Shown: positions 37,512 through 44,693 of the stretch, in pieces
How the letters are laid out: each line of letters opens with the position of its first letter
Position numbering within the stretch: position 1 is the stretch's first letter
Assembly: GCF_041361465.1 (NCBI RefSeq)
Contig: NZ_JBGKAC010000001.1
Location: forward strand, 496,001 to 560,000
Reading direction: 5' to 3'
DNA length: 64,000 nt
Origin: Halobaculum sp. MBLA0143
GTDB taxonomy: Archaea > Halobacteriota > Halobacteria > Halobacteriales > Haloferacaceae
Translations under genes and position numbers: made by a program
The notes under the pieces: generated by a model
What the model was told of the DNA's origin: nothing
The model's input: only the letters and a program-made list of their open reading frames with translations
Database searches by the model: none

Positions 37512-37977
37512 GTCCCTCCGGCCCAGGGTGAGGCTGAAGTGCGTTGTGAAACGATCCGACGGGAGCGGGGCCGAGTCGCCGTATCTCACACGATCGATCC
37601 AGATAGTCTCGGCGACTCGGGGCTCTTCGCCCGCGTGGGCAACTGCCGACGACGCACTCGGATGACCCGGTAGTGACAGCTGGAACGCCCCGTGGACGAC
37701 GGCGGCGACTGTCGGCTCTGACCCTTGACTGTCTGTTCTGTCGCTCACCCCGACCGTTGGTGCTAGAAGGAGACAGTCGGAAAACGCATCTGTCGCCCGT
37801 GGCGCACGCGGTGTCGGCTATGGGGAGTCACGGTCGGGGCACGCCCGAGCACGAGCGGCCGCGCTCGGAGTCGACCCCGGTCACGCCGCGTCGAGGAGCC
37901 GAGTCGAGAGGAGATCCGAACACCGTCGGCCTCTACGGTCGTTCCCTGTTCGGATTCGCCAGACGACAGTCACGGCT
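37512..37977 (-). other. Non-coding region upstream of the symporter gene
   Basis: About 465 nt with no gene supported. The open frames are Arg/Ser-rich and lack start signals. The sequence grades into the tRNA-related repeats on its right side. Confidence 0.5.
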
Positions 37978-38413
37978 GCGCGGTTCCTCGCAGTGCTTCC
38001 TCCGGTCGCACTGCTCGTCACGTTGTGTCGGGAAAGTGGGTTGGGGCGGATTCGAACTGGGTCACTCCCTACGGTCGCTCCCCGCTCGAAGCTCGCTGCC
38101 AGGCGAGATTCGAACGACGGTCGTTCCGCTCACTCCGTTCGCTCCACTCCCTCGTTCGAATCCTTCAGCAACAACCCCTGCGGCGCGGTTCCTCACAGTG
38201 CTCCCTCCGGTCGCACTGCTCGTCACGTTGTGTCGGGAAAGTGGGTTGGGGCGGATTCGAACCGCAATCGCTCGTTCCCTCCGGTCACGTCGCTCTCTGG
38301 TTCGAATCCTTCGGCAACAACTCCTGCGGCACGGCTCCTCACAGCACTCCCTGGCGGTCGTGCTGTTCGTCGCAGTGTGCCGCAGGAGTGGGTTGGGGCG
38401 GATTCGAACCGCC
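37978..38413. repeat. Tandem repeats containing the tRNA-Val 3' end
   Basis: Three related units start near 37978, 38184 and 38329. Units 1 and 2 agree at 78 of 80 positions. Each ends in TGGGTTGGGGCGGATTCGAA, the acceptor and T-arm of the tRNA-Val gene read on the plus strand; the third copy is the tRNA gene itself. The spacers after units 1 and 2 end in GTTCGAATCC, forming inverted repeats with the T-arm copies. The pattern resembles stacked attachment-site remnants, but no integrase gene is present. Confidence 0.8.
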
Positions 38414-38463
38414 GGCCTGCTCCGTGTGAAGGAGCCGTCATAACCGGACTAGACCACCAACCC
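38389..38463 (-). tRNA. tRNA-Val (anticodon CAC)
   Basis: 75 nt. The acceptor GGGTTGG pairs with CCAACCC, the anticodon stem GCTCC/GGAGC closes loop TTCACAC (anticodon CAC, reading GUG), and T-stem GGCGG/CCGCC closes TTCGAAT; the D-loop has the GG pair. The discriminator is A and CCA is not encoded. A TATA-like element lies about 29 nt upstream. Confidence 0.95.
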
Positions 38464-41942: not shown

Positions 41943-43463
41943 ATGTCTGACAACAGTTCACAGGGAAGCGGCGTCTCGCGGCGTCGTTTCGTCAAGGCTG
42001 CCGGTGCATCGGGGGCGGTGTACGGACTCGCTGGCTGTGCCGGCGGCGGTGGCGGCAGCGACGGCGGCGAGACGGAACAGGTCGACACGGAGCCGCCTTC
42101 AGAGAAGGTGACCGTCGAACTGGCGACGGACTCGAACTTCAAGAGCGCCGGCGATCAGATCGTCCAGTCGATGCGCGACCACGGCGGACTGCCGGACACG
42201 GTCGACATCGAGTGGACGGCCGGCTCCTTCGAGTCGGGTGACCGCCAGGCGAAGTACCAACAGCTCCTGAACGCGGGCAACGCCTCGCCGGCGATCATGA
42301 TGATGGACAACGGGTGGACGATCCCGTTCATCGCCCGCGACCAGCTCACGAACCTCTCGCAGGCGCTGCCCGACGAGATCACCTCGACGGTGAAAGACGA
42401 CTACGTCCAGACGATGGTCGGCACCGCGATGAACCAGGACGGCGACCTGTTCGGCGTCCCCCTGTTCGCGGACTTCCCGACGATCCAGTACCGGAAGGAC
42501 GTGCTCCGGGAGGCGGGCTACTCCGACGCCGACTTCGACCAGTGGTCGACGGAGCCGATGACGTGGTCGGAGTTCTCGTCGGTGGTCGCCGAGGGCCGCG
42601 AGGCGCTGGACGGGATGCTAGACGCCGGCACCACCGCACAAGGGTTCAACTGGCAGGGGAAGGCCTACGTCGGGCTCGCCTGCTGTGACATGGTGGAGTT
42701 CATGGGGTCGTGGGGCGGCTCCTACTTCGGCGAGTTCGGGAACCTGTTCGGCCCGGTCGGCGACCGCCCGGTCACCGTCGACGACGAACAGGTGGTCGAC
42801 GCGATCCGGATGATGCGGACGTTCATCTACGGCTCCGACGATCCGGTGGCGCTGGACGGCTACGAACAGATCTCGCCGAAGAACGTCGTCAGCTACACCG
42901 AAGAGCCCTCTCGGACCCCGTTCACCAAGGGCCGTGCGGTCGCACTCCGCAACTGGCCGTACTCCATCAACATCAACGGCACCGAGGAGAACTTCGGCGA
43001 GGACCTGGGCGTCATGCCGATGCCGTACGCGGTCGGCGCCGACGAGTCGCAGTACGGCCCGGAGATCGGCGGCTCCACGTCCGCGCTGGGCGGTTGGCAC
43101 CTCGCGCTCAACCCCAACGCGCCCGCCGAGAAGAAGAACGCCGCCTACCACGTGTTCAAGGCGCTCCAGACGGACCAGGTCCGGCTGGACCTGTTCGAGA
43201 TCGGCGGCTGGATCCCGCCGATCCCGGACCTCATCGACACGGAGCAGACTCGTCAGCTCGACCTGATCGGCCGCTACGTCGACTCGCTGGCGGTCGCCAG
43301 CGAGAACGCCGTCCCACGTCCGGTGACGGCCGTCTGGCCCCAGCAGTCCAGCAAGGTCAGCCAGGAGGTGAACGCGTCGCTGCGTCAACAGAAGACCCCC
43401 GCAGACGCGATGTCCTCGCTGAAGGAGACGATCCAAGCCATCGAGGAACAGGGGTCGAGCTGA
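41943..43463 (+). CDS. Sugar-type ABC transporter substrate-binding lipoprotein
   Basis: 506 residues, SBP family 1. Twin-arginine SRRRFVKAAGASGAVYGLAGC with lipidated Cys32, then a Gly/Asp tether. The core contains YQQLLNAGNASPAIMMMDNGW, PLFADFPTIQYRKDVL and TKGRAVALRNWPYS, typical of extracellular binding proteins for sugars or oligosaccharides. The C-terminal pattern suits partnership with the two MalF/MalG-like permeases downstream. The ligand is unknown. Confidence 0.93.
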   Translation: MSDNSSQGSGVSRRRFVKAAGASGAVYGLAGCAGGGGGSDGGETEQVDTEPPSEKVTVELATDSNFKSAGDQIVQSMRDHGGLPDTVDIEWTAGSFESGDRQAKYQQLLNAGNASPAIMMMDNGWTIPFIARDQLTNLSQALPDEITSTVKDDYVQTMVGTAMNQDGDLFGVPLFADFPTIQYRKDVLREAGYSDADFDQWSTEPMTWSEFSSVVAEGREALDGMLDAGTTAQGFNWQGKAYVGLACCDMVEFMGSWGGSYFGEFGNLFGPVGDRPVTVDDEQVVDAIRMMRTFIYGSDDPVALDGYEQISPKNVVSYTEEPSRTPFTKGRAVALRNWPYSININGTEENFGEDLGVMPMPYAVGADESQYGPEIGGSTSALGGWHLALNPNAPAEKKNAAYHVFKALQTDQVRLDLFEIGGWIPPIPDLIDTEQTRQLDLIGRYVDSLAVASENAVPRPVTAVWPQQSSKVSQEVNASLRQQKTPADAMSSLKETIQAIEEQGSS

Positions 43464-43482: not shown

Positions 43483-43508
43483 CCGGAGACGGTCTCTCCC
43501 GTCTCCGG
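43483..43508 (+). terminator. Intercistronic stem-loop after the binding-protein gene
   Basis: A perfect 10-bp stem, CCGGAGACGG with CCGTCTCCGG, and a 6-nt loop TCTCTC, 20 nt after the stop codon. There is no T-tract, so it more likely protects the 3' end of the binding-protein mRNA or attenuates than fully terminates. Confidence 0.55.
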
Positions 43509-43520
43509 AGGCGTCGCAGG

Positions 43521-43533
43521 CAGAACTATAATC
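43521..43533 (+). promoter_or_regulatory. Internal promoter before the permease genes
   Basis: A strong TATA-like AACTATAATC is centred 27 nt before an ATG at 43556. It should start a second transcript that carries the permease and ATPase genes. Confidence 0.5.
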
Positions 43534-43555
43534 GTGGGCCTTGACACCACACAAC

Positions 43556-43591
43556 ATGGAAACACAACGGGCGGAGGAACTTCGACCGTGA
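43556..43591 (+). CDS. Micro-ORF 1 of the permease leader (11 aa)
   Basis: Encodes METQRAEELRP. It starts at the predicted transcription start, so it would be translated leaderless. Its TGA overlaps the next GTG. No product function is proposed; it may deliver ribosomes downstream. Confidence 0.35.
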   Translation: METQRAEELRP

Positions 43592-43623
43592 CAGACGATC
43601 CGGAGGTGACCGACAGTGACTGA
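43588..43623 (+). CDS. Micro-ORF 2 of the permease leader (11 aa)
   Basis: Encodes MTDDPEVTDSD from GTG, with GGAGG 10 nt upstream inside micro-ORF 1. It carries the GGAGGTGA that serves micro-ORF 3. Confidence 0.35.
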   Translation: MTDDPEVTDSD

Positions 43624-43693
43624 CAGACGACGACGGACGAGACGGGCGGCCGACGAGCCACTGGTCCGTCGGGAGGTGGGTCGTGGCGACTGA
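43616..43693 (+). CDS. Micro-ORF 3 of the permease leader (25 aa)
   Basis: A GTG-started, Arg-rich 25-codon frame (MTDRRRRTRRAADEP at the N-terminus). A full GGAGGTGA ends 6 nt before it (43602-43609). Its stop lies 11 nt inside the permease gene, whose own SD (GGAGGTG, 43672-43678) is within this ORF. Confidence 0.35.
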   Translation: MTDRRRRTRRAADEPLVRREVGRGD

Positions 43694-44693
43694 ACGACCC
43701 GACGCGGCGCCCGGTCGGAAGTCGGGAGTGTACGCGGGGTTCGTCCGGTGGATGGAGAACCTCACCGAGACCCAGTTCGCCTACTTCCTGTTGACGCCGG
43801 CGTTGTTGTTGTTGGGCGTCGTCGCCTTCTGGCCGTTGCTCTCGACGTTCCGGCTGTCGTTGTTCGCCGACAACATCACCGGCGCCGCCACCGTCGGCGA
43901 CTTCGTGTTGTTGGACAACTACGTGGCGATCCTGACGGGCGAACGGAACGCGCTGATGCCGGCGCCGTTCCTCCCGGAGACGCTGACAGTCGGGGCGTTC
44001 TTCGAGAGCGCGCTGACGGTGACGTTGATCTTCACCGTCGTCAGCGTCCTGTTCGAGACGCTGATCGGCTTCGGCCAGGCGCTCGTGTTGAACCAGGACT
44101 TCAAGGGCCGGAGGTGGGTGCGCGTCGCCATCATCATCCCGTGGGCGATCCCGATCGTCGTCCAGGGGATGATCTTCTACCTGTTCTTCGCCCCCGACGT
44201 CGGGATCTTCATCGGCGACGGAGCGTTGTCGCTCCAGGGGCTGGGGCTCCTCTCGGACTCCCCGCTCCAGACGGCACAGGACTCGACGCTGATCGTGATC
44301 GTCGCGGACATCTGGAAGACGACCGCGTTCATGGCGTTGTTGATTCTCGCGGGGCTCCAGAGCGTCAACCGCGACCTGTACGACGTGGCGAAGGTCGCGG
44401 GCGCGTCGCCGTGGCAGCGGTTCAAGATGATCACCCTGCCGATCGTGTTCCCGACGGTGTTGGTGGCGATGCTGTTCCGGACGATCCAGGCGATGCGCGT
44501 GTACGGAGTGATCGAGGCGACGAACGTCGGCTGCAACACGCTGCCGTCGCTGTCGTGTCTCGTCGTCTCCTCGTTCTTCGGCGGGACGCGGCTCGTCGGC
44601 ACCGCAGCGACCGTCGCGTTCCTGACGGCCGCGATCATCGGGGTCGTCGTGTCGGTGTACATCGTGTTCTACGCACGGGAGGACGTGGAATGA
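43683..44693 (+). CDS. Sugar-type ABC transporter permease (MalF-like)
   Basis: 336 residues with six to seven helices. The first helix is FAYFLLTPALLLLGVVAFWPLL, and the EAA loop is YDVAKVAGASPWQRFKMITLPIV, which docks on the ATPase. An extracytoplasmic loop of about 65 residues follows helix 1. It starts at GTG behind a GGAGGTG site and overlaps micro-ORF 3. It ends ATGA-coupled to the second permease. Confidence 0.93.
   Translation: MATERPDAAPGRKSGVYAGFVRWMENLTETQFAYFLLTPALLLLGVVAFWPLLSTFRLSLFADNITGAATVGDFVLLDNYVAILTGERNALMPAPFLPETLTVGAFFESALTVTLIFTVVSVLFETLIGFGQALVLNQDFKGRRWVRVAIIIPWAIPIVVQGMIFYLFFAPDVGIFIGDGALSLQGLGLLSDSPLQTAQDSTLIVIVADIWKTTAFMALLILAGLQSVNRDLYDVAKVAGASPWQRFKMITLPIVFPTVLVAMLFRTIQAMRVYGVIEATNVGCNTLPSLSCLVVSSFFGGTRLVGTAATVAFLTAAIIGVVVSVYIVFYAREDVE

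Follow-up and report, generated by a model that had tools for sequence, protein, structure and literature searches.

The ABC sugar-transporter operon considered here lies in a 64,000-nt stretch of DNA (the window, meaning the whole of the stretch that was analysed) from a haloarchaeon with a genome of 3.58 Mb in two contigs. The operon runs from a gene for a sugar-binding protein (SBP), through a leader that contains a relay of three micro-ORFs, to a first permease gene that is followed by genes for a second permease and a MalK-type ATPase. A gene for a TbsP-like regulator is located upstream of the operon on the opposite strand. The SBP has orthologues that are 80–81% identical in two genomes of the same genus. 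The features of the SBP gene, the leader with its SD motifs, and the first permease gene are as follows.

41943–43463, plus strand: SBP gene (Pfam SBP_bac_8/SBP_bac_1)
43483–43508, plus strand: strong hairpin with a 10-bp stem just 3′ of the SBP stop, from folding
43527–43531, plus strand: TATA box TATAA, at −29 to −25 of ATG 43556
43556–43682, plus strand: 127-nt block (not a multiple of 3) that displaces the permease start, missing in 77 distinct orthologues
43556–43591, plus strand: micro-ORF 1 (ORF1), 11 codons, ATG start, METQRAEELRP and stop
43573–43577, plus strand: SD GGAGG (5 nt) before ORF2, 10-nt spacing, weak
43588–43623, plus strand: micro-ORF 2 (ORF2), 11 codons, GTG start, VTDDPEVTDSD and stop, overlapping ORF1 by 4 nt (GTGA)
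43602–43609, plus strand: SD GGAGGTGA (8 nt) before ORF3, 6-nt spacing
43616–43693, plus strand: micro-ORF 3 (ORF3), 25 codons, GTG start, VTDRRRRTRRAADEPLVRREVGRGD and stop, with overlaps of 8 nt (ORF2) and 11 nt (permease)
43672–43678, plus strand: SD GGAGGTG (7 nt) before the permease, 4-nt spacing
43683–44693, plus strand: first permease gene (Pfam BPD_transp_1), GTG start, VATERP...

The hairpin that follows the SBP stop has a counterpart of different sequence at the same position in the closest relative, L021 (3202–3293), with a z of −2.7 in each (L021, −2.65), and is perhaps an mRNA 3′-end or a stabilising element.

The TATA box, the ORFs of 11, 11 and 25 codons, their overlaps and the SD motifs had been described in an earlier reading of the DNA (the sequence-only reading), and every coordinate of that anatomy holds in the sequence and its translations. 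The spacing of the TATA box before ATG 43556 is the Haloferax volcanii consensus for transcripts that begin at the start codon (PMC3986360), and the base at −1 is a pyrimidine (C 43555), as is characteristic of haloarchaeal leaderless genes with a TATA box. The WW motif around −10 is missing, with ACAC at 43544–43547 in its place. Leaderless expression of the permease from its own GTG was ruled out by the absence of a TATA box near 43654, and a scan of the region for sigma-70 promoters and terminators is uninformative for archaea. Stops and starts overlap by 4, 8 and 11 nt along the chain, the type of overlap associated with termination-reinitiation coupling, and spacings of 4, 8 and > 8 nt are used in Haloferax operons (PMC3986360, Table 1). 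The SDs before ORF3 and the permease conform to the reinitiation type (6–8 nt long, 3–7 nt before the start), whereas that before ORF2 is 5 nt long and 10 nt away; an SD of this type is frequent in coupled pairs but is no requirement.

Comparison of 82 orthologous permease loci, 77 of them distinct, revealed that neither the relay nor the 127-nt block is present in any of the 77, and that the SBP-permease gap of 219 nt in the window compares with gaps of at most 132 nt in the orthologues. The permease begins with ATG in 77/77 distinct orthologues, mostly as MATE, MSTE or MATD, a count that is partly built in by an ATG/MATE-type filter that also placed the orthologue starts, but with which plain tblastn output agrees. 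The window alone has GTG (VATERP), at the position that corresponds by homology to the ATG of every orthologue. Two of the three other genomes of the genus carry the permease (89% and 87% identical), both without the block, and a close permease orthologue was not found in the third. The overlaps are thus not conserved in close relatives, and the relay was found in the source genome alone. The 11-nt overlap between ORF3 and the permease is a by-product of the permease's initial Thr-Glu/Asp codons, because these contain ACTGA; a TGA occurs at the same site in 26 of the 77 orthologues, and in 16 of the 77 it is the SBP stop that makes the same 11-nt overlap.

The ancestral position of the permease start is suggested by L021, whose permease is 89% identical. 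In this relative the permease ATG is found 92 nt after the SBP stop with TATATT at about −28, and in the window the distance from the SBP stop to the ATG of ORF1 is likewise 92 nt. The two regions, SBP stop to ORF1 and SBP stop to L021 permease, align end to end, with identity at 57/87 positions as far as the start codon. Alignment of −40 to +24 of ORF1 with the L021 permease start gave a score of 56, as compared with a maximum of 49 and a mean of 26.8 for 331 real gene starts; a second relative (L025) gave a weaker score of 43, which 5% of gene starts equal. The encoded peptides begin with METQRAE (ORF1) and MATERSE. Because the L021 ATG and TATA box stand exactly at the place of ORF1, micro-ORF 1 probably sits on the ancestral permease start, a start that was probably leaderless. 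The present permease start also resembles that of L021, with 19 of the first 24 nucleotides from GTG 43683 identical, or 17 of the 21 after the start codon.

As both ends of the block resemble the relative's single start, the simplest reading of these alignments is that the lineage of the window acquired the 127-nt block at the permease start, and that the old promoter and ATG stayed behind upstream of it. The block is a GAC-rich, low-complexity sequence, and DNA searches of its own genome and of 170 genomes of the family for a homologous leader returned only short GAC-rich matches. An origin of the block as a duplicated end of the permease or SBP gene was rejected, the self-similarity not being significant. 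The ORF2 and ORF3 junctions were also considered as copies of the permease junction, and their likeness to it was no greater than that of other SD-preceded gene starts (fractions 0.84 and 0.20).

How the permease is reached by ribosomes can be considered in light of work on Haloferax. In Haloferax, an SD in the 5′-UTR does not stimulate initiation, which is actually reduced when the SD is 8 nt long; downstream genes, by contrast, show a strong enrichment of 6–8-nt SDs at 3–7 nt before them, for which the authors invoke reinitiation (PMC3986360). Strict coupling was found for 9/9 gene pairs tested (PMC6728339), and coupling fades beyond 30–40 nt (PMC12548453). Since Haloferax SDs aid reinitiation at overlaps and not initiation in 5′-UTRs, ribosomes could plausibly reach the permease by way of the relay. 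On this route, the permease would formerly have been expressed from its own leaderless transcript, beginning at the ATG that is now at 43556, and the 127-nt block would have arrived out of frame between the old start and the permease. Because the block puts the permease out of frame, all that would now be read from the leaderless ATG is a remnant of 11 codons. Ribosomes initiating at ATG 43556 would reach the permease by termination-reinitiation through ORF2 and ORF3 rather than directly, with GGAGGTGA and GGAGGTG acting as putative pause and reinitiation signals. Should the transcript indeed begin at 43556, successive translation of ORF1, ORF2 and ORF3 would be the easiest path to GTG 43683 with its SD, and the permease would then depend on these ORFs. 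The peptides themselves are probably functionless.

A displaced leaderless start followed by serial reinitiation through the micro-ORFs is the best explanation of the leader, and we put its chance of being correct at about even. The distribution of SDs among the orthologues agrees with reinitiation, as an SD precedes the permease in 16/46 orthologues with at most 35 nt between SBP and permease, compared with 0/28 of those with a wider spacing. The occurrence of the relay in one genome only, the short SD of ORF2 with its 10-nt spacing, and the absent −10 WW motif argue against it. The stepwise passage from leaderless to SD-driven initiation proposed in the sequence-only reading fits the anatomy, the haloarchaeal literature (PMC3986360, PMC6728339) and the homology of the promoter and ATG with those of L021, and is weakened by the lack of conserved overlaps, which that reading had itself named as grounds for refutation. 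Translational coupling, in a variant particular to this lineage, is the most likely account of the arrangement. The fuller history, in which a leaderless gene severed by the block was kept expressed by a newly evolved micro-ORF relay and became dependent on reinitiation within the genus, is offered tentatively.

A different reading is that the block is an ordinary 5′-UTR with accidental micro-ORFs in a TGA- and GTG-rich sequence, and that the permease is started de novo at GTG 43683. In haloarchaea, AUG, GUG and UUG can all serve as starts behind 5′-UTRs that lack SDs (PMC3986360), and the block is GAC-rich and of low complexity. The frequency of such chains was examined in 485 gene upstream regions and compared with shuffled sequences; the regions came from 864 kb of the same genome, made up of the window and two stretches of 400 kb. 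Because background gene starts were predicted by a simple script and the case had been pre-selected as striking, the figures are approximate: chains of at least one micro-ORF numbered 32 against 30.7 expected, and chains of at least three numbered 1 (the permease leader itself) against 1.18 expected, but chains of at least two in which every step has an SD of 5 nt or more numbered 1 against 0.013 expected, and chains of at least three with SDs at each step occurred in 0 of 72,750 shuffles. In dinucleotide shuffles of the 127-nt block, chains of at least two ORFs reaching the permease were seen in 2–5%, and two GGAGGTG motifs in 0.08%. The chain of micro-ORFs by itself is therefore what chance would produce, and the chain together with its SDs is not. 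General use of micro-ORF relays was not found in the 864 kb, where chains are at chance level. The accidental reading also has to contend with the old leaderless ATG, which would meet ribosomes first, and with the failure of SDs at Haloferax 5′-UTRs to recruit ribosomes; it is a possible explanation, though we doubt it.

It is unlikely that the promoter at 43527 has decayed or become unimportant, such that the SBP transcript alone supports weak expression of the permease and the block is a tolerated insertion that lowers it. SBP and permease do belong to one operon and the intergenic hairpin would permit partial read-through, but the TATA box has the exact leaderless spacing and aligns with the promoter of the relative, and the 219-nt gap after the SBP stop exceeds the 30–40 nt reach of coupling (PMC12548453). 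Least probable, and very improbable in our estimation, is a regulatory uORF system that tunes permease output by attenuation or by the sensing of charged tRNAs: ORF3 does include an arginine-rich run and uORFs have been reported in long 5′-UTRs of Haloferax ABC transporter genes (PMC4983044), but the fold of the leader is not significant (z 0.16), the leader has no Rfam match and no conservation in relatives, and a codon run linked to the transporter substrate is absent. The leader therefore has neither the conserved peptide nor the structured, switchable fold of an attenuator, and the suggestions of tRNA sensing and of control over transporter stoichiometry in the sequence-only reading find no support, the 11-nt overlap being explained by the permease codons.

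If ribosomes traverse all three micro-ORFs, serial reinitiation through the leader would be direct evidence that a displaced haloarchaeal gene can be rescued in this manner. Such a rescue would be notable since haloarchaea do not start 5′-UTR translation by means of SD motifs, and it would show operon-type coupling arising from a leaderless gene. The coupled gene pairs of Haloferax volcanii (PMC6728339, PMC3986360) resemble the leader in their 4- and 8-nt overlaps, an SD inside the upstream ORF and a coupled downstream start, whereas the upstream ORFs of the permease leader are just 11–25 codons long, are arranged three in series and are lineage-specific, and their coupling is predicted from sequence. 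Haloferax volcanii 5′-UTR uORFs (PMC4983044, Table 2) are likewise small ORFs before normal genes, several of them before ABC transporters, but they have 15–31 codons and are reported as one per transcript in 5′-UTRs of 150–250 nt, whereas the three ORFs of the permease leader overlap and lead into the gene. A leaderless bicistronic design for Corynebacterium glutamicum (PMC10367133) shares the leaderless promoter, short fore-cistron, SD and coupled main gene; it is engineered, bacterial and has one fore-cistron, in contrast to a leader that is natural, archaeal and has three.

Among the simple bridges that join operon genes in this genome, strong SDs are missing except in the ribosomal operon on the minus strand of the window. 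Here the 64-nt junctions S4e-L5 (56035–56098) and S17-L14 (57539–57602), for which protein names were assigned from sequences and gene order, are 81% identical, and each contains a 15-codon ORF that is flanked by GGAGGTGA and joined to the next gene by TGATG. A copy of the L5 junction is also present in the same-genus genome G001 (91% identical), with the frame kept and codon changes that alter the peptide, and no copy of the L14 junction was found in the other genomes examined. The two junctions are possibly a small copied bridging cassette. In another member of the genus (L243, 1501–1548), a gene for a 436-aa protein is preceded by a tandem 20-nt SD-start repeat, which creates two ORFs of 7 codons each (VTDGGDS) with overlaps of the GTGA type. 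SD-bearing micro-ORF bridges thus appear, from these sequences, to have arisen more than once in the genus, which would make the permease relay more believable. Elsewhere in the window, partial direct repeats of 58–92 nt that are 81–97% alike occupy 37966–38412, adjoin tRNA-Val (38388–38463, minus strand), and contain a tRNA-like GGGGCGGATTCGAAC end.
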